NCBI RefSeq assembly: GCF_900890425.1
Contig: NZ_CAAHFG010000001.1
Coordinates: 4,154,001 to 4,218,000, forward strand
Direction of reading: 5' to 3'
Source of the DNA: Pontiella desulfatans
Lineage (GTDB): Bacteria > Verrucomicrobiota > Kiritimatiellia > Kiritimatiellales > Pontiellaceae
Length of the DNA stretch: 64,000 bases
Shown: positions 50,865 through 64,000 of the stretch, one piece after another
Layout of the letters: each line of letters begins with the position of its first letter
Numbering within the stretch: position 1 is the first letter of the stretch
Notes under the pieces: generated by a model
Told to the model about the DNA's origin: nothing
Database searches by the model: none
What the model saw: the letters and a program-made list of their open reading frames with translations, nothing else
Translations under genes and position numbers: made by a program

Positions 50865-53210
50865 GTGCATATTAGAACACACGTAATGATATCCATATTG
50901 GCATCAGCGGCCATTGCCTACTCCGCAACGGGATCGAAGATGAACAAAATCCCCGCGCCTCCCCCGCTCACCGATCTCTTCAATCCGGCGGCAGCCCGCA
51001 AACTGATCGCCAACGGAGTGAACAAACTGGCGTTCATCAAGCGGAACACGCTAGATGCGAACCATTTTTACACCGAATATGTCAACAGCACCTGGAAACC
51101 GGGCGGCAACATTTGCATCCTCGACCTGAAGACCGGAACCGCGCGCGAGCTGATGCCGGAATTCAGTGAAGGCGTCTTTAACCGTTTCGACGTCTCCTTC
51201 GATGCGAAAAAAATTATTTTCGACTACAAAAAAATCCATGCCGAGGGATACCGGATCTACGAAATCAACGTGGATGGCACCGGACTGCGTCAGCTCACCT
51301 TCCCCCAGGCCAACGAAGCGGCACTGGTCAAGAGCTACGGCAACAGGCAGTACCACCACGGCACCGACGACATGCATCCGTGCTACCTGCCCGATGGAAG
51401 CATCGCCTTTGTATCCACGCGCTGCCAATACAGCATTCTTTGCGATAGCGGCGATGTTTTTTCCACCAAGGTGCTCTACCGGATGGACAAGGATGGCAAG
51501 GGCATGCGGGCGCTCAGCAACAATCCGGTCAGCGAGGCCTCGCCCACCCTGATGCCCGACGGACGCATCCTCTACCACCGCTGGGAATACAACGACAAGG
51601 CGGCCGGCAACGCCAAATGCCTTTGGTCAATGCGTACCGACGGCTCCGGATCGGCCGAGGTCTACGGCAACACGCTCACCTATCCCGAAACCCTGATCTA
51701 CGGCCGCGCGATTCCCGGTGCACCCGGAAAGATTCTCTCGCTGGCCTGCAGCCACTGGGGGCCGAACAACGCCATGGGCACGGTCGTCGTGATCGATACC
51801 ACCAAGAATATCCGCACCAGGGAACCGCTAACCTACATCACCAAGGATGTCGATGCCCAGGCGCACAGCGGCTTCCACTTCCTGATCGACGGCCAGTGGA
51901 TCCACGATAAAACCGGACTGCCCGGACGCCTGTTCAAGGATCCCTACCCCATTTCCGAAACGCTGTTCATGGCCTCCCTCAAACCCAAGGGCTACCGCTG
52001 GAACGATGTAGCCGCCTACGACCTTTGCCTGCTCGACGCGAACGGTGAAACCACCCCGCTCTACCAGGACAAATCCATCTCCTGCTGGCACGCCATGCCG
52101 CTGGCGCCGCGCACAAAACCTCCGGTTGCCGAAGGCTCCATCGATCCCGCGCTCGCGAAGAAGGGCAAAGCCGTCTGCGTGGTGGCCGATGTCTACCACG
52201 GCATGCCGGAAGTGGAGCGCGGCGCCGTCAAATACCTCCGGGTCATGGAGCAGGTCAGCCGCCCCTGGACGGTGCGCAACCGATGGCCGAACGACCGCAG
52301 CGGCATGGCGCACTCGGCCATCGGCATCGGGCGCCTCGGGCTCAAGGTGCAGCACGGCATTGTTCCCGTCGAGAAAGACGGATCGGCCCACTTCGAGGTT
52401 CCGGCCGAACGCAACATCTATTTCCAGGCGCTGGACGAAAACCATATGGCCGTACAGACCGAACGCACCTATATCAACTATATTCCCGGCGAAACGCGCA
52501 GCTGCGTGGGTTGCCACGAACTCCCCGGCGAAGTGCCGCCCGCCTCGACCGGGTTCGCCACTCCGCTGGCACTTCAACGGGTTCCGTCGCAAATGCGGCC
52601 CCAACCCGGCGATTCCAGCCCGCAAAAGACCATCAACTATCTCACGCAGGTGCAACCCGTTTGGGACAAGCACTGCATCGAGTGCCACGGTGCGGTTGAT
52701 CCCAAAGGCGGCCTGAACCTCACCGGCGCCCCGACCAAACTATGGACGGTGTCGTATGAGGCGCTGATGAACAGTCGGAATCCCAGACTGGGAATCCCCT
52801 ATGCCGGCGAATACATGAGCGCCAACGAGGACAAGGGGAGCGCCGACATCTCCTACCGCAATGCCTACCACTCCGGTTCGCACACCAGCCCCCTCGTCAC
52901 CGTCATCGGCAACGGACGCATTCCGCTCCGCCACCCGGACGCCGATGCGATTGCCAGGCGCCTCGTCAATCCGCACAGGAACATCAGGCTGACCCAGGCC
53001 GAGTTCGTGAGCGTCGTCAACTGGCTTGATGCCTTCGGCCAGTTCTACCCCTCCTACTGGGGGCTGAAAAACGCGGCCCACGAAGGCCACGAGTTCTTCC
53101 GGCCCGACGTCGGCTTCGAGGATGCGATCAACCGCGAGATCCCTGCCACCTTCGCGCCGCTTTACGACAACCCGCCGAAGCAACCCAAGACCACCGCCCG
53201 GAGCAAATAG
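50865..53210 (+). CDS. Di-heme secreted protein related to the hydrazine synthase alpha subunit (middle domain)
   Basis: 781 aa, GTG start at 50865 with AGAGGA upstream; an ATG at 50886 is possible. Signal peptide ISILASAAIAYSA. A WD-like propeller region (FDVSFDAKKIIFDYKK, HPCYLPDGSIAFVSTRC, ASPTLMPDGRILYHRWEYND) precedes two c-type heme sites, CVGCHE (about 546) and CIECHG (about 603). This arrangement is known from hydrazine synthase alpha-like proteins, which are widespread in PVC genomes without anammox. Hydrazine synthesis is not implied. Probably a periplasmic oxidoreductase or binding protein. Confidence 0.82.
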   Translation: MHIRTHVMISILASAAIAYSATGSKMNKIPAPPPLTDLFNPAAARKLIANGVNKLAFIKRNTLDANHFYTEYVNSTWKPGGNICILDLKTGTARELMPEFSEGVFNRFDVSFDAKKIIFDYKKIHAEGYRIYEINVDGTGLRQLTFPQANEAALVKSYGNRQYHHGTDDMHPCYLPDGSIAFVSTRCQYSILCDSGDVFSTKVLYRMDKDGKGMRALSNNPVSEASPTLMPDGRILYHRWEYNDKAAGNAKCLWSMRTDGSGSAEVYGNTLTYPETLIYGRAIPGAPGKILSLACSHWGPNNAMGTVVVIDTTKNIRTREPLTYITKDVDAQAHSGFHFLIDGQWIHDKTGLPGRLFKDPYPISETLFMASLKPKGYRWNDVAAYDLCLLDANGETTPLYQDKSISCWHAMPLAPRTKPPVAEGSIDPALAKKGKAVCVVADVYHGMPEVERGAVKYLRVMEQVSRPWTVRNRWPNDRSGMAHSAIGIGRLGLKVQHGIVPVEKDGSAHFEVPAERNIYFQALDENHMAVQTERTYINYIPGETRSCVGCHELPGEVPPASTGFATPLALQRVPSQMRPQPGDSSPQKTINYLTQVQPVWDKHCIECHGAVDPKGGLNLTGAPTKLWTVSYEALMNSRNPRLGIPYAGEYMSANEDKGSADISYRNAYHSGSHTSPLVTVIGNGRIPLRHPDADAIARRLVNPHRNIRLTQAEFVSVVNWLDAFGQFYPSYWGLKNAAHEGHEFFRPDVGFEDAINREIPATFAPLYDNPPKQPKTTARSK

Positions 53211-53259
53211 CACCCTATCGGTCTCGCATTCCATGGGGTGCTCGACTACCCTGCTTCGA

Positions 53260-54402
53260 ATGAACATCAAATCCATTTATTTGGCGCTGCCGCTCCTTGC
53301 CGTCTGCATGAGCGCCTGCATCTCCGCGGAAAAAGCGGGCGCGGAAACCCCATCCGTACCCCATGAAATCCAGGCATCCCACCCCGCCCTTGCCGAAGGG
53401 AAGCCGACCCCCCAAACCCTGATCCAAACCCGCGATCCCGAGGGCAGCCTCCTGGAGTATTACCTGGACGTGGATTCGGTGATCTGCGGCGACGGACAAT
53501 GCGAAATCATTTCGGTTAGGCTGTTCTGGGACCCGATCGGAACCTTCCTTCGCTACGAATTCCCCAAGGGCGGAGACCTGACTAAACGCGGGCACCAAAA
53601 GTTTTCAGCCAAAGACCATGAGAAGCTGCAGGGTATTCTCTCCGACCCGGCATCCTTGCTGAAGGAAGTGAACCCGAAGGATGTTGTTTCACCGGCCCAG
53701 GCCCAGACGGGTGATGAAATCGATGGCTCGTCCGGGGCCACCCTGCTCTCGGATAAATCGGCGATCGTTTCCGGCGCGGTCTACACCTGCTATACCCTGT
53801 GGCACTGGGTCAACAGTCCGCTGCAGGCCACGATCAGCGGCATTTCCGCCAAGGAGATGAACAACCGGCAACTCATCGACTATCTCAACAGCACCGATGA
53901 GCAACGGATCGAATTCGCCATCACCCGACTCTCCGAACGGGGCACGAAGGATGAATCCACCAAGGGGGCCGTCTATAACCAGGCCCTTAACGGAAACACG
54001 GGGCTGGCGAGTGCCGCGATCGGCTATTTCGAAAGCCTTGGAGCCGAAAACTACTACGAGGCCATCGCAAAACTCTTTAGCCAGGGTTCGTCCAAGAAAC
54101 AGGTGCTCTATCTTTCATCCTTGGTTTCAACCGATCTACCGGCCCCCGATGGATTCTACGACCACCTAAGCAACAGCCTGCCCGAACTGGAAAGCTATTA
54201 TGAAGTCCACTTGCTGCTGAACCTGATGACCGACAAGAACCGCGAATCACCGGAGGTCGTTGCGAATGTCCTTGTGCTGCTCGACAACAAGTCGTTTTTG
54301 ATCGGCCGCCGGGCCTATAATTTCCTGAAAGACCTTGAACTGCCGGAACCGCAGCTCGCACAGGTCGAAGCCTTCCGCACCAAATACGCCGACCGATTGT
54401 GA
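53260..54402 (+). CDS. Exported lipoprotein-like protein with FMN-attachment-like motif and helical repeats
   Basis: 380 aa from the ATG at 53260. Signal with LLAVCMSAC, probably a lipoprotein. The central block DEIDGSSGATLLSDKSAIVSG resembles the D-G-x-S-G-A-T flavinylation motif of NosR/RnfG-type FMN-binding domains. The C-terminal half (residues about 200-380) has helical HEAT-like repeats (IEFAITRLSERGTKDES, AAIGYFESLGAENYYEAIAK). Similarity to the FMN family is my reading of one motif only. It follows the di-heme gene by 49 bp. Confidence 0.55.
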   Translation: MNIKSIYLALPLLAVCMSACISAEKAGAETPSVPHEIQASHPALAEGKPTPQTLIQTRDPEGSLLEYYLDVDSVICGDGQCEIISVRLFWDPIGTFLRYEFPKGGDLTKRGHQKFSAKDHEKLQGILSDPASLLKEVNPKDVVSPAQAQTGDEIDGSSGATLLSDKSAIVSGAVYTCYTLWHWVNSPLQATISGISAKEMNNRQLIDYLNSTDEQRIEFAITRLSERGTKDESTKGAVYNQALNGNTGLASAAIGYFESLGAENYYEAIAKLFSQGSSKKQVLYLSSLVSTDLPAPDGFYDHLSNSLPELESYYEVHLLLNLMTDKNRESPEVVANVLVLLDNKSFLIGRRAYNFLKDLELPEPQLAQVEAFRTKYADRL

Positions 54403-54530: not shown

Positions 54531-54989
54531 ATGAAGAAGCCCATAAAATATCCGACAGCGGAAGAGGCTCCGACCGATCTGATGGTCGAAGAACCCATTG
54601 CGATTTTCGGCCGGGTTGATAGCCGCGAAGAGGTCATCACCCGCATCAAGAAAGGCCTTCCCACCGCGAGCTTTGAAAAGCTGCGGGAAGAATTCGGGGT
54701 GACCGCCGCCGAGCTGGCGAAAACGTTGAACATCAACATGAGGACACTTGCGCGAAGGAAGCAAAGTGGTCGACTCGATGTTGATGAGTCGGAACGGGTG
54801 TACCGCTTGGCGCGGCTTTATCAGATTGCACTGAATCTCTTCGAGGATGCCAGCCTCGCCCGGCGCTGGTTCGCGGCACCCAAGGATATTTTCGGGGGCC
54901 AGACGCCGCTCAACTATGCGGACACCGAACCCGGCGCACAGGAAGTGGAAAAACAATTGCGCCGTTTGGAACACGGCGTCTTCTACTAA
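54531..54989 (+). CDS. Xre/MbcA/ParS-type antitoxin
   Basis: 152 aa. The N-terminal helix-turn-helix region (EEFGVTAAELAKTLNINMRT, LARRKQSGRLDVDESERVYR) and the C-terminal DUF2384 toxin-binding domain (ASLARRWFAAPKDIFGGQTPLN, given in part) are both visible. It neutralises the RES toxin encoded 9 bp downstream and should autoregulate the operon. GGAG ribosome-binding site. Confidence 0.9.
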   Translation: MKKPIKYPTAEEAPTDLMVEEPIAIFGRVDSREEVITRIKKGLPTASFEKLREEFGVTAAELAKTLNINMRTLARRKQSGRLDVDESERVYRLARLYQIALNLFEDASLARRWFAAPKDIFGGQTPLNYADTEPGAQEVEKQLRRLEHGVFY

Positions 54990-54998
54990 GGAAACCCC

Positions 54999-55469
54999 AT
55001 GCCCCGGGCCTGGCGACTCGTTCATAAAAAATATGCCGCATCCGCCTTCAGCGGCGAAGGCTCCCGGTTGGCAGGAGGCCGCTGGAACTCCGAAGGATAC
55101 CCCGTCGTCTATACGGCGGGCTCCCTTTCGCTCGCCTTGCTCGAAATCATTGTCCACCTGGAATTCAAAAAGGCGCTGCAACACTACAAAGCCATCCCGG
55201 TTGACATTCCCGAAAGCGAACTGCTGGCCGTCGACGCCTCTAGACTCCCGTCCGGATGGAACGAACCGCTACCGCACTCCTCCACCCTGCTGATCGGCAA
55301 CCGCTGGCTGCAGGATCAGGGTTCGGCGGCCATGATGGTGCCCAGCTCCATTGTTCCCATCGAATCAAACTTCCTGCTGAATCCGCAACATCCGGGCTTT
55401 GGCAAACTGACCATCGGAACCGCCATCGACCTGCCACTGGATCCCCGCGTTCTGAACAAACTGAAATAG
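54999..55469 (+). CDS. RES-domain toxin (NAD+ phosphorylase/ADP-ribosyltransferase-like)
   Basis: 156 aa. The RES residues are visible: R in GSRLAGGRWN, E in ALLEIIVHLE and S in MMVPSSIVP, together with YTAGSLSLALLE. RES toxins deplete NAD+ in the cell. It forms a type II pair with the Xre-type antitoxin, in the usual antitoxin-first order. Complete length. Confidence 0.92.
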   Translation: MPRAWRLVHKKYAASAFSGEGSRLAGGRWNSEGYPVVYTAGSLSLALLEIIVHLEFKKALQHYKAIPVDIPESELLAVDASRLPSGWNEPLPHSSTLLIGNRWLQDQGSAAMMVPSSIVPIESNFLLNPQHPGFGKLTIGTAIDLPLDPRVLNKLK

Positions 55470-56026: not shown

Positions 56027-56938
56027 ATGAAAGCAATCCAATTGGCAGTTGCAACCGCATTAATCGGCATATCGGCCTTCGCCTCCGGCTACAGGGTCGA
56101 GACCCAGATCGGCAAGGACAAGCTTGGATTTATCAGCCAATTGGCGATTGGATCCGACGACTCGATCTGCGTCCTCGAAAACAACGGGAAAGTCTCCCGC
56201 TTCAACGGCGACGGTTCCCTTGCCGGAACCATCGAAACCGAAATGGAAAACACCACGGCCATTGCGGTTTCCCGGAACGGGAATATCCATGTGTTTTCAA
56301 CACAGACCGAAGTGAAAAAGGTCAAGTCGGGAGCCCGCATGAGGGAAGTCCATGTTCCGGTTGGCGTTGAACACGGCGTATTCGATGCCTCGGGGAAAAA
56401 GCTGAAAAGCAACAAGCTTGATAACCTTAAATCAGCCAAGGCGGCGAAGATCCTGGATGGCAAACTGGTGGTGGCGGATCTCACGGCGCGCGCACTGGTT
56501 TTCCACGACCTGGAAACCGGCAAGGAAACCGCGCGGATCAAGAAGGGACTCCGCCTGTGTTGCGGCATCTTCGATTTTTGCGAAGCCCCCGACCGGACCG
56601 TGGCGGTCTCCAACCTCGGCGCGTTCAAGGTGCAGCGCTATGACCTGAACGGCAACATCGTTATGGAGTTCGGCCAGCGCGGGCGCGGCCTCGACGATTT
56701 CCAGGGATGCTGCAACCCGGTGAGCGCGGCCTACCTGCCCGGCGGCACCATCCTCACCGTTGAAAAAGATCCCACCCGCATCAAGGTCTACGATGCCGCC
56801 GGCAAAAACGCCAAGCAGATCGAAGGCGTTGAAGAACTCGTTAAAGGTTGCAGTTTCATCCCGACCGCCGTCGATAGCAAAGGCAACATCTACCTTGCCG
56901 CCAACACCAAGGGCTACATCGTCAAATGCGTAAAATAG
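56027..56938 (+). CDS. Exported beta-propeller protein with cysteine motifs
   Basis: 303 aa from the ATG at 56027 (GGAGA upstream). Signal peptide MKAIQLAVATALIGISAFASG. NHL/SMP-30-like propeller blades are visible (SQLAIGSDDSICVLENNGKV, IAVSRNGNIHVFS, RTVAVSNLGAFKVQRYDLNG, PTAVDSKGNIYLAAN). Paired cysteines at LRLCCGIFDFC and QGCCNPV could form disulfides or bind metal. Its last 13 bp overlap the next gene, so it is the first gene of a four-gene operon with PhnD-like and NapG/NapH-like proteins. Confidence 0.78.
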   Translation: MKAIQLAVATALIGISAFASGYRVETQIGKDKLGFISQLAIGSDDSICVLENNGKVSRFNGDGSLAGTIETEMENTTAIAVSRNGNIHVFSTQTEVKKVKSGARMREVHVPVGVEHGVFDASGKKLKSNKLDNLKSAKAAKILDGKLVVADLTARALVFHDLETGKETARIKKGLRLCCGIFDFCEAPDRTVAVSNLGAFKVQRYDLNGNIVMEFGQRGRGLDDFQGCCNPVSAAYLPGGTILTVEKDPTRIKVYDAAGKNAKQIEGVEELVKGCSFIPTAVDSKGNIYLAANTKGYIVKCVK

Positions 56939-57768
56939 GACTCAGTCTTTTTGCACTGGCACTGGCCGGTTGCATCACCAGGCCCACCGATCCACTGGCC
57001 CTGAAGATTGCGGTCAACGACATCTACTGCACCGACACCGCCTGCTTCTGCGTGCACGATGTCGCCGCACGCGGCTACACCCCGACCGTGGACACGTTGA
57101 GAGCGGAACACGGCATCGAGCTGGAGTTCACCTACTTCACGGAACCCTACCAGCTGGAGGAGGCCATCCTGTCCGGCCAATTCGACGGTGTGCTTGCAAA
57201 ACCGTGGACGGCCTTGCGCCTTCAAAGGCAGGCCGGAGCCGAATTCCAGCGCATCGCCGACGTGCTCGACCCCAACGATAACCGCTGGCTAAGCGGCATC
57301 GTGATCGTCCCGGCCGACTCCCCCATCCAAACCCTGGAGGAACTGAACGGGAAACACGTCTACCTCGGCCAATCCGACGCCTACGAAAAACACCAGGCCG
57401 CCAAACGGCTCTTCGAACTCAAAGGCATCAAGCCCGCAAAAGTAGGCACCAAGGCCAGCTGTTCCGAAAACATCGGGGTGCTGCTGGATGAGGAAGCCGA
57501 TGCCGCCGTCATCAGCGACTACGCCCTCTCGGCCGACTGCGCCGTCGATTTCGCCAATCCCGGCGACTTCCGCACCCTCGAACACACCGAACGGATTCCA
57601 CTGACCTCCTTGATGCTCGACATGAAACGCGTGGGTCCACCGGAGGCGGAACGCCTGAAAAAGGCTCTGCTTTCCATCTCGGGCAGCCAGGCCGACGAAT
57701 CCCTGCTAGGCCAGGGTTTCGTGGAGCCCGCCCCCTGGAACCCACCAGAATTGGAGCACACGCCATGA
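56926..57768 (+). CDS. PhnD/SsuA-type substrate-binding lipoprotein
   Basis: 280 aa, lipobox ALALAGC. Two-lobed periplasmic binding protein pattern: LKIAVNDIYCTDTACFCVHD, YQLEEAILSGQFDGVLAKPW, GIVIVPADSPIQTLEELNGK, VYLGQSDAYEKHQAAKRLFE and DAAVISDYAL. An extra cysteine-rich stretch (CTDTACFC) at the start of the first lobe is unusual. No ABC transporter subunits are adjacent, so it may act as a sensor or partner of the iron-sulfur proteins encoded next rather than in import. Confidence 0.8.
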   Translation: MRKIGLSLFALALAGCITRPTDPLALKIAVNDIYCTDTACFCVHDVAARGYTPTVDTLRAEHGIELEFTYFTEPYQLEEAILSGQFDGVLAKPWTALRLQRQAGAEFQRIADVLDPNDNRWLSGIVIVPADSPIQTLEELNGKHVYLGQSDAYEKHQAAKRLFELKGIKPAKVGTKASCSENIGVLLDEEADAAVISDYALSADCAVDFANPGDFRTLEHTERIPLTSLMLDMKRVGPPEAERLKKALLSISGSQADESLLGQGFVEPAPWNPPELEHTP

Positions 57769-58379
57769 AGCGAAGAAACCATCTAAGGATCGTCGGCCAG
57801 CTGCTCGGCATCTCCGTGTTGGGCGGTGCAGCCGCGCGCATCTTTTCCCCACCCTCGGAAGATGCCGAATTCGTCGCCCAGGGGCGCCGTTTCGCCTGGC
57901 AGATCATTCCCGGAAAATGCCGGCATTGCGGCATCTGCGAGACGGCCTGCGTCCGCAAGCCTTCGGCCGTCAAGGCGCTCAACGATCCGAAAAAATGCTC
58001 CAACTGCGTAGTCTGCTACGGCCACATCACCGATACCCACATCGACTCCAACAAGATCGATTCCGAAGGCGACCGCGTTTGCCCGGTCAATGCCGTCACC
58101 CGCATCAACTTCAGCGGCGGCGCCGACGGCATGTTCCTCTATGCACAGGATCCCAAACGTTGCATCGGCTGCGGCAAATGCGTCAAGCGCTGCAACCACC
58201 ACGGCACCGAATCGATGTTCCTCGCCATCCGGCCCGACCTGTGCCTCGGCTGCAACGAATGCGCGATTGCCCTGGCCTGCCCGCACGACGCCATCGAACG
58301 CATACCCCGCGAAACGGTCGACGACTACCTGGGCGACTACTGGTTCGATTCCACCTATATGACGGGGGAAGGCGCTTGA
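57765..58379 (+). CDS. NapG-like 4Fe-4S protein
   Basis: 204 aa, start overlaps the previous stop by 4 bp. The N-terminus MKRRNHLRIVGQLLGISVLG is Tat- or anchor-like with a hydrophobic stretch. Four cysteine groups are present: CRHCGICETACV, CSNCVVCYG, CIGCGKCVKRCN and CLGCNECAIALACP, enough for three to four 4Fe-4S clusters. Likely a periplasmic-side electron carrier paired with the NapH/NosR-like membrane protein encoded next. Confidence 0.82.
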   Translation: MKRRNHLRIVGQLLGISVLGGAAARIFSPPSEDAEFVAQGRRFAWQIIPGKCRHCGICETACVRKPSAVKALNDPKKCSNCVVCYGHITDTHIDSNKIDSEGDRVCPVNAVTRINFSGGADGMFLYAQDPKRCIGCGKCVKRCNHHGTESMFLAIRPDLCLGCNECAIALACPHDAIERIPRETVDDYLGDYWFDSTYMTGEGA

Positions 58380-59413
58380 TCCGGATTTTGCTCATCCTCT
58401 TCCTTGCGCTCGCCCCGATCGGAGCAACGGTCGCCCAGGAATCCGACGAATGCCATCGTCCCCCGACACAGGAGTTGGCCGACTACAAGGAAACCTACGT
58501 TCCCCAGGAATTCCACTGGGAATCGTTTGGCTGGGAAATCGCCGACGTGATTGCGCTGGCCATCATGCTGGCCATTGGCAGCCTGCTCTCCGTACGGCAC
58601 CTCCAGCGCCATTGGTTCACCGCACTGGCGGGCATTGCCCTGCTCTACTTCGGCATCGTCCGCGGCGGTTGCATCTGCCCGGTCGGCGCCACCACCAACT
58701 TTTTCATGGGTCTTGCCGCGCCCGAGTTGATTGGCAAGCTGGTGGCCGTCTTGTTCCTGCTGCCGCTGATCGCCGCATTTTTCTTTGGCCGCGTCTTTTG
58801 CTCGTCCGCCTGTCCGCTCGGCGCTATCCAGCACCTGCTCTCCCGCAAGAACGGCATCCAGCTCCCGACCCTCCTCAACAAGATCCTGCGGCTCATCCCC
58901 ATTGCCCTGCTCATCGCCACTGCCTGGGGCGCATTGCGTAGCGGCATCTTCCTCGCCTGCAAGCTCGATGTCTACAAACCCATCTTTTTCACGGGCCACG
59001 CCTGGTTCGGGCAGCTCGCCGACCGCGTGGGCGAAGGCTCCATGGAACCGGGGCTGTTGATCGTCGGCAACCTGCTGAACTGGCTTGTCCTGCTGGCGGT
59101 ACTGGCGCTGGGCATTTTCATCCCGCGCCCGTTCTGCCGCTTCGCCTGCCCCTACGGCGTCCTGCTCGGATTCTTTTCGAGGGTCGGGCTGCGCAAACGG
59201 CACATCGATGCCGAAAGCTGCTTCGCCTGTGTCCAGTGCACCAGGACCTGCCCCGTGCAAGCCATTACCGCCGACCGGGAAAAGCGCAACATCAAGGTTT
59301 CCGACTTCCACTGCGTCCAGTGCGGCCGTTGCGACGTAACCTGCAAGGCGGATTCCTTCCAAAGCCCCTCCCCCTATCCAGAGACACGCTTTCCGAACAT
59401 CGGTAAGAACTAG
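58376..59413 (+). CDS. NapH/NosR C-terminal-like polyferredoxin membrane protein
   Basis: 345 aa from a TTG at 58376 that overlaps the previous stop (TTGA). Signal or first helix ILLILFLALAPIGA, then about five further helices. CxxxCP motifs CSSACPLGAIQ and CRFACPYGVLLG are the hallmark of the NosR/NapH/CcoG membrane family. Two C-terminal ferredoxin clusters follow, CFACVQCTRTCP and CVQCGRCDVTC. Probably moves electrons between quinol and the exported iron-sulfur protein. No nosZ or nap reductase gene is in the window. Confidence 0.85.
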   Translation: MIRILLILFLALAPIGATVAQESDECHRPPTQELADYKETYVPQEFHWESFGWEIADVIALAIMLAIGSLLSVRHLQRHWFTALAGIALLYFGIVRGGCICPVGATTNFFMGLAAPELIGKLVAVLFLLPLIAAFFFGRVFCSSACPLGAIQHLLSRKNGIQLPTLLNKILRLIPIALLIATAWGALRSGIFLACKLDVYKPIFFTGHAWFGQLADRVGEGSMEPGLLIVGNLLNWLVLLAVLALGIFIPRPFCRFACPYGVLLGFFSRVGLRKRHIDAESCFACVQCTRTCPVQAITADREKRNIKVSDFHCVQCGRCDVTCKADSFQSPSPYPETRFPNIGKN

Positions 59414-59565: not shown

Positions 59566-59916
59566 ATGAAACCATGCAATTTCGAGATCTTTGAACTGCA
59601 GGCCGACCTGTACCAGACGATGGCCAGCCCCAAACGGCTGGCGATCGTCGAGCTGCTGAGCCACGGGGAACAGTGCGTGGGCGCCATCGCCGAGACCCTC
59701 GACTCATCTGTCAGCGCCATCAGCCAGCACCTGCGGAACATGAAGGACAAGAACGTCGTGGTCACCCGCAAGGATGCCCAGACCGTCTACTACCGCCTCA
59801 AGAATCCCAAGATCATCGAAGGCTGCCACCTTGTCCGTGAAATCCTGCTCGAAGAGATGGAAGCGCAGGGCCGCAAGGCGCGCGACTACGACGAAGAAAC
59901 CGTATTAACAAACTAA
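59566..59916 (+). CDS. ArsR-family regulator, possibly persulfide-sensing
   Basis: 116 aa from the ATG at 59566. Winged helix: MASPKRLAIVELLSHGEQC, SSVSAISQHLRNMKDKNVVV and VYYRLKNPKIIEGCHLVREI. Cys37 lies in the helix after GEQ and Cys87 near the C-terminal helix, positions similar to the two cysteines of SqrR/BigR-type sulfide/persulfide sensors. A metal-sensing motif of the CxC type is absent. It heads an operon with DsrE, TusA, MvhD and HdrA proteins, which supports a sulfur signal; this is inference. Confidence 0.87.
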   Translation: MKPCNFEIFELQADLYQTMASPKRLAIVELLSHGEQCVGAIAETLDSSVSAISQHLRNMKDKNVVVTRKDAQTVYYRLKNPKIIEGCHLVREILLEEMEAQGRKARDYDEETVLTN

Positions 59917-59938: not shown

Positions 59939-60493
59939 ATGAGCGAAGAACAAGCCAACCTTGAAGAAATGATCAAACAGCTGACCGCCCGCGTGGAGGA
60001 GCTCGAAGAAAACGCGCCCGGCGACAAGCTGACGCTCGGCGTCATGAGCGGGGATCTCGACTATACCATCGCCGCCTTCATCATCGCCCTCGGTGCAACG
60101 GCCTACGACATGGAGGTGGATATGTTCTTCACCTTCTGGTCGCTCTCCGCCCTGCGTGATCCGAAGAAGAAAGTGAAGAAGGACTTCCTCGGAAAAATGT
60201 TCGGCGCCATGTTGCCGTCCAGCTCAAAGAAGCTCCCGCTTTCCAAGATGCAGATGATGGGCATGGGCCCGCCAATGATCCGCGCGGTGATGAAAATGCA
60301 CAAGGCCAAGTCGCTCGAAGAGCTGATGGCCGACGCCGCCGAATTCGGCGTCCGCATCCATATCTGCGAAATGTCCATGGGCGTCATGGGCATCAAAAAA
60401 GAAGAAATCATCGATTACCCGCATCTGGACTTCGTCGGCGTCGGCACGTTTGTCGATATGTTCCAGGGCTCGAAGCAGTGCTTCTTTATGTAG
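59939..60493 (+). CDS. DsrE/DsrF/DrsH-like protein
   Basis: 184 aa; a GGAG site lies about 10 bases before the ATG. An N-terminal coiled-coil segment (EEMIKQLTARVEELEENAPG) precedes the DsrE fold (LTLGVMSGDLDYTIAAFIIA, MFFTFWSLSALRDP). The conserved cysteine is in FGVRIHICEMSMGVMGIK (about Cys143), the position of the DsrE persulfide carrier. Methionine-rich middle part (KMQMMGMGPPMIRAVMKMHK). It would hand sulfur to or from TusA encoded next. Confidence 0.88.
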   Translation: MSEEQANLEEMIKQLTARVEELEENAPGDKLTLGVMSGDLDYTIAAFIIALGATAYDMEVDMFFTFWSLSALRDPKKKVKKDFLGKMFGAMLPSSSKKLPLSKMQMMGMGPPMIRAVMKMHKAKSLEELMADAAEFGVRIHICEMSMGVMGIKKEEIIDYPHLDFVGVGTFVDMFQGSKQCFFM

Positions 60494-60595: not shown

Positions 60596-60847
60596 ATGAG
60601 TGAAGAACTGAAAGCATTGGACGTAGCCATTGAAGTAGACGCACGCGGAACCGCTTGCCCCGGCCCCTTGCTGGAAGCCAAACGCGCGATTGCCGATTGC
60701 CCCGTCGACGGTGTGATGTGCGTACTTTCGTCTGACGAAGGCACGATCATCGATATCCAGCGCTGGAGCAAAAAGATGAAGCACGAATATGTCGGCGACT
60801 ATGAAGACGATGGCTTCTGGCGTGTCTACATGAAGAAACTCGGGTAA
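60596..60847 (+). CDS. TusA-family sulfurtransferase
   Basis: 83 aa, AGGAG 6 bases upstream. The signature GTACPGPLLEAKRAI contains the CPxP persulfide cysteine. The rest (VLSSDEGTIIDIQRWSKKMK) fits the small two-layer TusA fold. Transfers sulfane sulfur between proteins. Context with DsrE and HdrA resembles sulfur-carrier sets in sulfur-metabolising anaerobes. Confidence 0.92.
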   Translation: MSEELKALDVAIEVDARGTACPGPLLEAKRAIADCPVDGVMCVLSSDEGTIIDIQRWSKKMKHEYVGDYEDDGFWRVYMKKLG

Positions 60848-60951: not shown

Positions 60952-61359
60952 ATGATGAAAAGCAACGAACCGCAACCCAAGATTCTGGTCTTCTCGACCA
61001 ACAGCATTTCGGATCCAGGCATCGACCTGGCCGGAAGCGCCCACATGCACTATTCCACCGCGGTGCAAGTGATTCCCCTGCCCTGCTCCAGCGGCGTCAA
61101 GCCTTCGTGGATCGTCCACGCCATCAAGCAGGGCTTCGACGGCGTCTTCGTGGCAGGCTGCGGCGGCGACTGCGCCTTCCTGGCCGACTGCACCCCGCGC
61201 ACCAGCGCGTTGATTAAACAGGCGCAGGAACTGATGAAGGAAAACGACATCAGCCCGAAGCGGCTCAAGATGTCAGGCCTCTGCTCGGTCTGCGCCGACA
61301 ACTTTGTGGCGCACATGAACGCATTCCAGAAAGACCTCATCAAGTTGGAGGAACAATGA
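60952..61359 (+). CDS. MvhD/FlpD-like iron-sulfur subunit (hydrogenase iron-sulfur subunit family)
   Basis: 135 aa; adjacent ATGs at 60952 and 60955. MvhD pattern: VIPLPCSSGVKPSWIVHAIK, GVFVAGCGGDCAFLADCTPR and LKMSGLCSVCADNFVAHMNA. Five to six cysteines can hold a 2Fe-2S cluster. In methanogens MvhD passes electrons to HdrA, and here it overlaps the HdrA-like gene by 4 bp. It probably links an electron donor to the bifurcating flavoprotein. Confidence 0.87.
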   Translation: MMKSNEPQPKILVFSTNSISDPGIDLAGSAHMHYSTAVQVIPLPCSSGVKPSWIVHAIKQGFDGVFVAGCGGDCAFLADCTPRTSALIKQAQELMKENDISPKRLKMSGLCSVCADNFVAHMNAFQKDLIKLEEQ

Positions 61360-64000
61360 GCGATAAAAAAGAAATGGACTACGATGTAATGGTGGTCGGC
61401 GCCGGAACGGCCGGCATGGAAGCCTCCCTTTCCCTCGGCGACATGGGCTTCAAGGTGCTGCTCGTCGAAAAAGACCCCAGCATAGGCGGCCGCACCATTC
61501 TGCTTTCCAAGGTGTTCCCTACCCTCGACTGCGCCAGCTGTATTTCGACCCCGAAAATGGCCCAGAGCCTGCACCACCCGAATATTACGTTGATGACCTA
61601 CAGCGAAGTCGATGGCGTCACGAAAAACGCCGACGGCACCTTCCACGTCAACATGCACAAGAAGCCGACCTATGTCGACCAGACCACCTGCACCGGCTGC
61701 GGCCAGTGCGAAAGCGTCTGCACCGTGCCGATTCCCGACGAATATAACTACAACATGATTGCCCGCCGCGCCGCGCACATCCCCTTTCCGCAGGCCATTC
61801 CGAAAAAGGCGGTCATCAGCCGCAGCGCGCAACCGCCTTGCACACACACCTGCCCGGCCGGCGTTAAGCCGAGCGGCTTTGTTTCGCTGGTGCGCTCCGG
61901 GAAATATGAAGAAGGCTTCAAGCTCCACCTGGCCGACGCCCCGCTCGTCGGCAGCCTCAGCCGCGCCTGCTACGCCCCGTGCGAAGGCGAATGCACCCGC
62001 GACGAAATGGAAGGCTCGGTCAACATCCGCGCCATCAAGCGCTTCATGGTCGATTGGTACTACGACCGCCATCCCGAGCCGGACTACGGCCCGGTTGAAA
62101 CCCAGCTCGATTCCAAGGTCGCCATCATTGGTTCCGGCCCCGGCGGACTGACCGCCGCGTTCCACCTGGCCAAACAGGGCCATCAGGTGACGGTCTTCGA
62201 ATCCGAACCGCAGGCCGGCGGCATGCTGCGCCACGGGATGCCCGCCTACCGCATGCCCAAGTCGCTGCTCGACCGCGATATCAAAAACATCACCGCTCTT
62301 GGCGTAGAGATTAAAACCAGTACACCGGTCGAAAGCATTGCCTCCCTCAAGGAAGCCGGCTACGACGCCGTCTTCGTGGGCGTCGGCAACCAGAATCCGC
62401 GCATTATTCCAATCACCGGAAACAATCTCGCCGATGTTACCGACTGCATGTCGTTCCTGAAAGACACCAATGTCGGCGACGAACTGCCCGACATCGAAGA
62501 TAAGGATTTTGTCGTGCTCGGCGGCGGCAACGTGGCGCTCGATGTGGCCCGCGCCGCGGTTCGCATGGGCACCAAGAGTGTTTCGATCGTCTGCCTGGAA
62601 GAAAAAGACCAAATGCCTGCGCTCGACTTCGAAGTCCGCGAGGCGGACGAGGAAGGCATCACGTTCTACACCGGCGTCTCCACCAAGCGCATCTACACCG
62701 ATGATGCCGGCAACAGCATCCTGGAAGTGCTGAAGGTCGACCAAATCAACTTTGACGAAAACGGCCGCATGACCGGCTTCTCCACTGCCGAAGGATCGGA
62801 ACAGCAGATTCCCGCAGACGTGGTGGTGATGGCCGTCGGCCTTTCGCCGAGCACCATCCCGTTCGAGAATGAGCTGGAGCTCAACGGCAACAAAACCATC
62901 CCGGTTAACAAGCAAACCCTCCAGACCGCGGATCCGATGGTCTTTGCCGGCGGCGATGCCGTGCTCGGCCCGTCGATCATCGTCGAAGCCATGGGACAAG
63001 GCCGCAAAGCCGCGTTCTACATCGACCGCATGCTCAAGGGCGAATCGCTCGACGTTGGCTTTGAAGTAGAGCTGGAAGCGGCCGACAAAGAGGAGATTCT
63101 CTCCTGTTCGAAGAACTGTTCCTCTCTGGCCCCGACCGCAATCCGCGAACTCGAACCGCACAAGCGTATTCAAAGCTTCGAGGCCTATGAAGAAACCATG
63201 ACCGAAAGCGAGGCGCGCCATTCCGCCAACCGGTGTTTAGGTTGCGGCGAGTGCTCGCAATGCCGGGAGTGCGTGAATGTCTGCCCCGGCGACTGCATCA
63301 ACTTCAACATGGGCACGGACAACCTCGAAATGACCGTCGGCTCGGTGATCATTTCCACCGGCTACGAAATTCTCGATCCGGCCGGCAAGGAACTCATGGG
63401 TTACGGCAGATATCCCAACGTCATCTCCGGCCCGCAGATGGATCGCCTGCTGGCGCCGACCCGCCCCTACAACGGCGTGCTGCGCCCGTCGGACGGCAAG
63501 GAACCGGAAAACATTGCCATCGTACTCTGCAACGGTTCGCGCGACCACACGGTCTGCAACCCGCTCTGCTGCCGCATCGGCTGCATGTATTCCGCCAAGC
63601 ACGCGCAGCTCGTGATGGGTGCGCTGCCGATGGCGGATGTGACCATCTACTACATCGACTTCCGCGCGTTCGGTAAAGGCTACGACGAATTCTACGAACA
63701 GTCGAAGGGCATGGGCGTGCAGTACACCAAAGGCAAGGTCGCCCGGATCGATGAGATCGAAGGCGGCAACCTGAAGGTGCACTACGAAGATATGGAAGGC
63801 GAAGGCGGCCTGCAGGAAGCGGAGCACGACATGGTCGTTCTGACCGTCGGCTTCCTGCCCAATCTCGAATCGCTCAAGCTCTTCAAAGGCAGCGAACTCG
63901 AAGCCGATGAATTTGCCTACATCAAGGAACCGGACGCGACCTCGCAACCGGGACGCACCAACATCGAAGGCTTGTTTGCCGCCGGCACCGTCATCGGTGC
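61356..64000 (+). CDS. HdrA-like flavoprotein with inserted GltD-like NAD(P)H module (partial, 3' end outside window)
   Basis: 881 codons visible without a stop. Order: HdrA-type FAD motif VVGAGTAGMEASLSL (residues 12-26), CASC, a 4Fe-4S site CTGCGQCESVC, then a DPD/GltD-type cysteine domain (CTHTCPAGVKPSG, CYAPCEGECTRDE). Next come an FAD motif IIGSGPGGLTAAFHL, an NAD(P) motif VVLGGGNVALDVARAA, a ferredoxin stretch CLGCGECSQCRECVNVCP, and the C-terminal HdrA part (CNPLCCRIGC, YYIDFRAFGKGYDEF). A second flavin and NAD(P)H site in one chain would suit electron bifurcation with the MvhD-like subunit. Confidence 0.88.
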   Translation, partial: MSDKKEMDYDVMVVGAGTAGMEASLSLGDMGFKVLLVEKDPSIGGRTILLSKVFPTLDCASCISTPKMAQSLHHPNITLMTYSEVDGVTKNADGTFHVNMHKKPTYVDQTTCTGCGQCESVCTVPIPDEYNYNMIARRAAHIPFPQAIPKKAVISRSAQPPCTHTCPAGVKPSGFVSLVRSGKYEEGFKLHLADAPLVGSLSRACYAPCEGECTRDEMEGSVNIRAIKRFMVDWYYDRHPEPDYGPVETQLDSKVAIIGSGPGGLTAAFHLAKQGHQVTVFESEPQAGGMLRHGMPAYRMPKSLLDRDIKNITALGVEIKTSTPVESIASLKEAGYDAVFVGVGNQNPRIIPITGNNLADVTDCMSFLKDTNVGDELPDIEDKDFVVLGGGNVALDVARAAVRMGTKSVSIVCLEEKDQMPALDFEVREADEEGITFYTGVSTKRIYTDDAGNSILEVLKVDQINFDENGRMTGFSTAEGSEQQIPADVVVMAVGLSPSTIPFENELELNGNKTIPVNKQTLQTADPMVFAGGDAVLGPSIIVEAMGQGRKAAFYIDRMLKGESLDVGFEVELEAADKEEILSCSKNCSSLAPTAIRELEPHKRIQSFEAYEETMTESEARHSANRCLGCGECSQCRECVNVCPGDCINFNMGTDNLEMTVGSVIISTGYEILDPAGKELMGYGRYPNVISGPQMDRLLAPTRPYNGVLRPSDGKEPENIAIVLCNGSRDHTVCNPLCCRIGCMYSAKHAQLVMGALPMADVTIYYIDFRAFGKGYDEFYEQSKGMGVQYTKGKVARIDEIEGGNLKVHYEDMEGEGGLQEAEHDMVVLTVGFLPNLESLKLFKGSELEADEFAYIKEPDATSQPGRTNIEGLFAAGTVIG

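Follow-up and report, generated by a model that had tools for sequence, protein, structure and literature searches.

A Four-Gene Propeller-PhnD-NapGH Operon of Pontiella desulfatans That Looks Like an Undescribed Redox Module of Several Related Bacterial Phyla

Gene Organization of the Operon

The window analyzed here is a stretch of 64,000 nucleotides of the Pontiella desulfatans genome (assembly GCF_900890425.1, contig NZ_CAAHFG010000001.1, positions 4,154,001 to 4,218,000). Close to its end lies an operon of four genes which encode a β-propeller, a lipoprotein with the fold of the phosphonate-binding protein PhnD, and a pair of iron-sulfur (Fe-S) proteins resembling NapG and NapH. The operon looks like an undescribed redox module common to several related bacterial phyla; a search of the open-access literature yielded no publication on a propeller/PhnD/NapGH module. 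The four genes are as follows.

56027..56938, + strand: PROP, an NHL-type six-bladed β-propeller with a signal peptide, 303 amino acids (Pfam, AlphaFold2, VIA-align)
56926..57768, + strand: PhnD-fold periplasmic binding lipoprotein, 280 amino acids, lipobox LAGC (PF12974, model, VIA-align)
57765..58379, + strand: NapG-like exported polyferredoxin, 204 amino acids, RR signal, 16 Cys (Pfam Fer4 domains)
58376..59413, + strand: NapH-like membrane protein, 345 amino acids (Fer4_5; two C-x3-CP and two C-terminal CxxCxxCxxxC motifs)

In the order propeller, PhnD, NapG, and NapH, consecutive genes overlap by 13, 4, and 4 bp, and the overlaps are identical in Pontiellaceae bacterium B12227. The probable start of NapH is the TTG within its TTGA overlap, which would yield a signal-like N terminus. 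A first-pass annotation made from the sequence alone had proposed that four genes overlapping by 4 to 13 bp act together, and the four genes do form one unit. The arrangement recurs in 11 of the 23 loci obtained by scanning a named genome collection with the PhnD alignment, and this recurrence in several phyla is far beyond chance. The genes neighboring the operon include neither a reductase gene nor an ABC (ATP-binding cassette) transporter, as that annotation had also stated.

The NapG-Like and NapH-Like Proteins

In a Pfam scan, the NapH-like protein matches Fer4_5 with 58.5 bits and the NapG-like protein contains Fer4 domains. The two C-x3-CP motifs of the NapH-like protein, CSSACP at 142 and CRFACP at 254, are a hallmark of NapH. 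Scores against the curated families remain far under the cutoffs, with 24.4 bits for NapG (NF007012, cutoff 269) and 69.7 bits for NapH/MauN (TIGR02163, cutoff 213.05); the score against NapH (NF007013), 60.5 bits, likewise lies under its cutoff of 234. The PhnD-like protein, at 21.4 bits, does not reach the cutoff of 261.1 for the PhnD equivalog TIGR03431. Because these scores fall below the curated cutoffs, the three proteins are classed here, as far as their sequences go, as relatives outside the NapG, NapH, and PhnD families. The resemblance to NapG and NapH put forward at first pass thus holds for domains and motifs but not for family membership.

A profile search with PF00384, the family of NapA and of the DMSO (dimethyl sulfoxide), polysulfide, and formate enzymes, gives no match in the genome carrying the operon, compared to matches in 11 of 14 control genomes; 4 of the 10 module-bearing genomes tested contain the family. 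NosZ was assayed with TIGR04246, an earlier profile (PF18764) having matched no control and therefore been set aside. This genome shows no match to TIGR04246, whereas 9 of 276 genomes of the phylum exceed the cutoff. The earlier view was to fall if a nosZ, nap, or other reductase in the same regulon elsewhere used these proteins; a nosZ or nap enzyme was sought throughout the genome and not found, so the operon still stands without a known reductase. Separately, P. desulfatans is reported as a DMSO reducer in excerpts of PMC7356697, although its genome has no PF00384 match.

Because the genome is without matches to the molybdopterin oxidoreductases (PF00384) and to NosZ, the NapGH pair here does not serve NapA or NosZ, and a nitrate or nitrous oxide reductase elsewhere in the genome is ruled out. 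An ordinary electron path toward nitrate or nitrous oxide with a distant reductase, as the likeness to NapG and NapH might suggest, is thus extremely unlikely; the low family scores speak against it as well, and according to parts of PMC7356697, Pontiella type strains do not reduce nitrate. For this genome (8,658,305 bases in 6 contigs), the path is refuted unless the gene sits in the unassembled part (estimated completeness, 95.17%).

The PhnD-Fold Protein

The PhnD-like protein matches the phosphonate-binding family PF12974 with 87.4 bits (cutoff, 27). Its AlphaFold2 model, with a predicted local distance difference test score (pLDDT) of 91.0, is closest among solved folds to PtxB (5o37; VIA-align Z of 20.1, root mean square deviation [rmsd] of 4.1, 246 residues aligned), followed by ArrX, HtxB, and XAC2383 (Z of 19.9 each) and AioX (Z of 18.0). 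A phmmer search against PDB sequences returns a single weak, unrelated match, and a comparison with PHROGs gives no lead. The conserved residues below come from alignment A4 of PhnD rows, from which L023 and L025 are excluded; type A denotes the loci linked to NapGH, and type B denotes loci in which NapGH was not found beside PhnD.

57028..57051, + strand: Cys35, Cys40, and Cys42 (C-x4-C-x-C), marked by conservation, in the loop that follows strand 1
57385..57387, + strand: Glu154, in 24/24 rows, pairing with a Ser of the Ser-Thr-Ser stretch of PtxB
57460..57462, + strand: Cys179, in 24/24 rows, pairing with a His of PtxB
57538..57540, + strand: Cys205, in 12/12 type A rows

Cys40 and Cys42 are present in 23 of 24 rows and Cys35 in 14, among them 11 of the 12 type A rows; Arg49, Tyr51, Ser197, and Tyr199 are invariant (24/24). 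In type B, a Cys lies two residues beyond position 205 in 11 of 12 proteins, as read off the alignment. The sole protein without Cys40 and Cys42 (row L048) also lacks the loop Cys, a joint loss that would be expected if these residues formed one site. By predicted secondary structure, Cys35 to Cys42 occupy the loop following the first strand, Cys179 the start of a helix, and Cys205 a loop following a strand, places expected to face the cleft in the PhnD fold. The pairings of Glu154 and Cys179 derive from a profile alignment to PtxB (5jvb), whose aligned His and Ser are treated as ligand residues of PhnD-type proteins in line with excerpts of PMC5908839.

As judged from these alignments, the protein keeps the PhnD fold with a conserved set of cysteines where its relatives bind oxyanions and is not an ordinary binding protein; the first-pass description of a binding lipoprotein is borne out in fold and family only. 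Its further statement that no ABC pump accompanies the lipoprotein agrees with the distribution of the permease PhnE, which scores above the cutoff in none of the 10 module-bearing genomes compared to 6 of 14 controls. A role in ABC transport is ruled out by this absence.

The proximity of ArrX and AioX among the closest folds raises the question of a sensor of their type, in which the PhnD protein would bind a metalloid or soft metal and signal. AioX binds arsenite via Cys (excerpts of PMC5908839), an ArsR-family gene lies downstream of the operon, and a kinase-like gene, identified by eye, follows the relative locus L023. The four-gene unit contains no kinase at any of the 11 type A loci, however, and sensing would require neither NapG nor NapH, which makes this role very unlikely.

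The Propeller

The propeller scores 23 bits against SBBP (Pfam cutoff, 20.5) and 19.5 bits against NHL, just below the cutoff of 20. The nearest fold to its AlphaFold2 model (pLDDT of 91.5) is the NHL domain of TRIM2 (7b2r; Z of 30.4, rmsd of 2.2, 252 residues); a lumenal quenching protein, presumably SOQ1, and NHLRC2 follow at lower Z values of 23.8 and 23.6. The description of the propeller as Cys rich is accurate, with 8 Cys, of which the following 5 are conserved in PhnD-linked propellers.

56558..56563, + strand: PROP Cys178-Cys179 (LCCGIFDF), Cys179 in 18/18 and Cys178 in 17/18
56708..56713, + strand: PROP Cys228-Cys229 (GCCNP motif), 18/18
56849..56851, + strand: PROP Cys275 (KGCSFIP), 18/18

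Alignment A6, on which these counts rest, omits row L046 (partly N). Twenty-nine sister propellers from loci without PhnD were counted at the same sites, with L084, a fusion of PQQ-like and propeller parts in a single frame, outside this count. Cys228-Cys229 occurs in all 29, positions 178-179 are PS in 27 and YS in 2 and never Cys, and Cys275 occurs in 2, with another residue in the other 27. Cys178/Cys179 and Cys275 thus follow PhnD and not NapGH, as they are kept in PhnD-linked propellers with or without NapGH. Cys179, Cys229, and Cys275 lie in three consecutive blades, each 13 residues ahead of the second strand of its own blade; given this shared register, they should converge at one face of the propeller channel.

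Distribution and Phylogeny

A PhnD relative at an E value of ≤1e-10 is found in 9 of 288 genomes of the phylum. Among the 23 loci of the wider collection, type A (propeller, PhnD, NapG, and NapH in order) accounts for 11 (L026 to L036, including L029, where the contig end cuts NapH), with hosts in Pontiella, other Kiritimatiellales, Lentisphaerae, a planctomycete, and Akkermansia glycaniphila. The neighborhood survey suggested with the first-pass annotation therefore shows that the module is not confined to the P. desulfatans locus. The other 12 loci are of type B: in 9, PhnD is fused to a PQQ/BamB-like propeller, in 1 a separate PQQ-like gene adjoins it, and 2 show neither. The propeller gene is seen in 18 of the 23 loci; the contigs of some of the remaining 5 end nearby.

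A third arrangement, type C, consists of a PQQ-like gene, the propeller, NapG, and NapH without PhnD and is found at a second locus (L007) of the same genome. With the L007 propeller as the query, matches occur in 41 of 276 genomes, and among the best 30 loci, NapG lies within the examined flank of 28 and a PQQ-like gene accompanies 25. Each type thus combines the propeller with a different pair drawn from three partners: PhnD and NapGH in type A, PhnD and a PQQ-like protein in type B, and a PQQ-like protein and NapGH in type C. The split between PhnD-linked and PhnD-less forms agrees in the NapG tree (95/93; 12 type A and 28 type C rows) and the propeller tree (100/96), and types A, B, and C each form a single clade in the latter. 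The earlier interpretation is upheld in that the four genes are a unit without a known reductase but has to be widened, since the propeller family also occurs in two other gene arrangements.

Locus L007 (L007:1-10707, contig 4) begins with a SPASM-like open reading frame, recognized by eye, and two squalene-hopene-cyclase/prenyltransferase-like genes and continues with a PQQ-like gene, a DUF116-polyprenyl synthetase fusion, a second PQQ-like gene, a propeller with GCCNP, NapG, and NapH. Its PQQ-propeller-NapGH core is repeated in many genomes of the phylum. By gene content, the locus looks like a terpenoid-linked redox cluster.

Proposed Function of the Module

The reading preferred here, held tentatively, treats the propeller-PhnD pair as the functional end of an exported redox system supplied by NapGH. 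NapH, a membrane Fe-S protein, and NapG, exported and with about four Fe-S clusters, would link the menaquinone pool by electron transfer to the propeller-PhnD pair, which would be soluble or anchored by lipid. The PhnD fold would have given up the former phosphonate-type oxyanion site for 4 to 5 conserved cysteines (35, 40, 42, 179, and 205) and Glu154, all expected to lie in the cleft, and the propeller would contribute two CC pairs together with one further Cys. The thiolates of both proteins would hold a metal or Fe-S center or make redox-active disulfides; on this reading, a metal in the site would be probable. The pair itself would then be a new type of exported oxidoreductase rather than an adapter for some other enzyme resembling NapA or NosZ. 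The direction of electron flow, the cofactor, the contacts among the four proteins, and catalysis by the pair are predictions.

A wider formulation is offered with considerable doubt: a solute-binding fold may have become a thiolate-metal catalytic subunit, connected by NapGH to the quinone pool, in one of three arrangements of a redox system of the Planctomycetota-Verrucomicrobiota-Kiritimatiellota-Lentisphaerota group. Each arrangement would unite a Cys-motif propeller with two members of the set PhnD, PQQ-like propeller, and NapGH.

NapGH-type pairs are usually taken to indicate respiration of nitrate or nitrous oxide. A NapGH-like pair with Cys-rich exported partners in an organism without those enzymes indicates that annotation by resemblance misleads here. 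Excerpts of PMC7356697 report that menaquinones are made by the Pontiella type strains, which reduce elemental sulfur (S0), ferric citrate, and fumarate, with strain F1 also reducing DMSO, while thiosulfate and nitrate are not reduced; the mechanism of acceptor reduction is described there as unclear. The module is a candidate for this unexplained activity, for which the pair, if the preferred reading is correct, could account. The conserved cysteines offer a direct way to test whether a solute-binding fold has acquired a new metal or redox site.

Several observations weigh against an oxidoreductase fed by NapGH. Twelve of the 23 PhnD loci, including the nine PQQ/BamB-like fusions, have no adjoining NapGH, so NapGH is not always needed. 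No enzyme of a recognizable catalytic family accompanies the module. Because each of the three types forms a single clade, the correlation between the propeller cysteines and PhnD reflects one evolutionary change and not repeated evidence. Kiritimatiella glycovorans, according to passages of PMC7356697, reduces the same acceptors without quinones or genes for c-type cytochromes. None of the 23 PhnD loci bears that species name, so those reductions apparently do not depend on the module.

A role in maturation or repair is rather unlikely in itself but nearly as likely as the preferred reading. Here, electrons from NapGH would reach the propeller and PhnD to keep thiols reduced or to deliver metal to exported proteins, which would fit a module without a catalytic enzyme. 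The role of NapGH is debated between quinol dehydrogenase and maturation factor, and the Campylobacter pair is discussed as a reductive maturation factor instead of a respiratory wire (parts of PMC6195509). The similar folds include thioredoxin-NHL propellers, those of NHLRC2 (6gc1) and of the lumenal quenching protein, a TlpA/AhpC-like gene lies ahead of the propeller in L023, and a thioredoxin-like gene lies near the A. glycaniphila locus (L036). Set against this, no client protein consistently adjoins the module, and the conserved cysteines of the two proteins exceed the needs of a thiol relay.

Neighboring Genes

Downstream of the operon, the window contains a cluster of sulfur-related genes, of which the last continues past the window end.

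59566..59916, + strand: ArsR-family regulator, first gene of the cluster (family scans)
59939..60493, + strand: DsrE2-like protein (PF13686, 152.5 bits)
60596..60847, + strand: TusA (PF01206, 69.4 bits)
60952..61359, + strand: FlpD/MvhD-like protein (PF02662, 101.3 bits)
61356..63998, + strand: HdrA/GltD-like flavoprotein (family scans)

The HdrA/GltD-like gene is followed by a second HdrA-like gene, a small Fe-S protein gene, and an HdrB-like CCG gene. Past an opposite-strand porin gene lies an 820-amino-acid fusion of coenzyme A-disulfide reductase, rhodanese, TusA, and DsrE2 (L006:13550-16012), a candidate cytoplasmic sulfur or persulfide reductase.

The ArsR-DsrE2-TusA-FlpD-HdrA run follows the module in the window and in L018/L026, L027, L028, and L019/L030. 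Across 28 genomes of the genus, PhnD occurs in 12 and HdrA1 in 9, all 9 among the 12 (9/12 versus 0/16 without PhnD; Fisher 3.2e-5, uncorrected for kinship). Of the three PhnD genomes without HdrA1, two are 89% and 76% complete and the third, G370, has a stop in PhnD. In G370, the PhnD relative (G370:C146:15011-15829) contains an in-frame TAA and an HdrA1 relative is missing too, as if both genes were in the process of loss.

This linkage suggests a module that reduces or captures extracellular sulfane sulfur, polysulfide, or a thio-oxyanion for the DsrE2-TusA-Hdr pathway, and in Metallosphaera, DsrE3A and TusA react with tetrathionate and transfer thiosulfate (excerpts of PMC4175335). Such a sulfur function is distinctly unlikely. 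HdrA1 at an E value of ≤1e-150 occurs in 15 of 155 genomes of the class, and six genomes of other families (G349, G216, G214, G285, G012, and G206) keep the DsrE2/TusA/FlpD/HdrA order without adjoining PhnD, which is listed for G012 only, on a separate contig. Conversely, no sulfur genes stand beside PhnD-NapGH in the examined flanks of L031 and L033 to L036. The L006 fusion could by itself explain S0 reduction, and the type strains do not reduce thiosulfate (parts of PMC7356697). The sulfur cluster and the PhnD module are therefore partners in Pontiella and not one system; the cluster is rejected as a defining part of the module, as each occurs without the other.

Just upstream of the operon, the window holds an Xre-type antitoxin and RES-domain toxin pair (54531-55469). 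Farther upstream are a cytochrome-like protein containing the middle domain of hydrazine synthase alpha (50865-53210; PF18582, 84.8 bits) and an exported-looking protein (53248-54402) whose EIDGSSGAT stretch appears by eye to be flavin mononucleotide binding-like and which matches no Pfam or NCBIfam model. These latter two genes were dropped as parts of the operon, as the upstream gene differs in four relatives: in L018/L026, L027, L028, and L029, a gene that is presumably RlmN-like replaces both.

Comparison with Known Systems

The exported redox system preferred above shares features with four known groups. Like the NapGH, NosGH, and MauMN pairs, the operon encodes in paired genes an exported polyferredoxin and a membrane Fe-S protein with two C-x3-CP motifs; unlike them, its proteins score under the family cutoffs, its genome contains no NapA or NosZ, and the pair is joined by a propeller and a PhnD-fold protein. 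With the oxyanion binders PhnD, PtxB, and HtxB, the lipoprotein shares PF12974 and the fold across the entire domain (Z of 18 to 20), but it has no PhnE pump above the cutoff, Cys179 and Glu154 in place of His and Ser, and added conserved cysteines.

The arsenic sensors AioX, ArrX, and ArxX likewise use a PhnD-like fold outside ABC transport, and AioX binds its ligand via Cys (excerpts of PMC5908839), whereas the operon lacks a sensor kinase, encodes a protein with several cysteines, and links it to NapGH. Pocket residues of AioX and ArrX are compared via the PtxB alignment only, and the folds are alike at Z values of 18.0 to 19.9. NHLRC2 and SOQ1 share the six-bladed NHL fold and carry a CC-containing motif in their thioredoxin-like partner domain (parts of PMC6107167); the operon, in contrast, has no thioredoxin domain and places its cysteines (CC, GCCNP, and GC) within the propeller itself.

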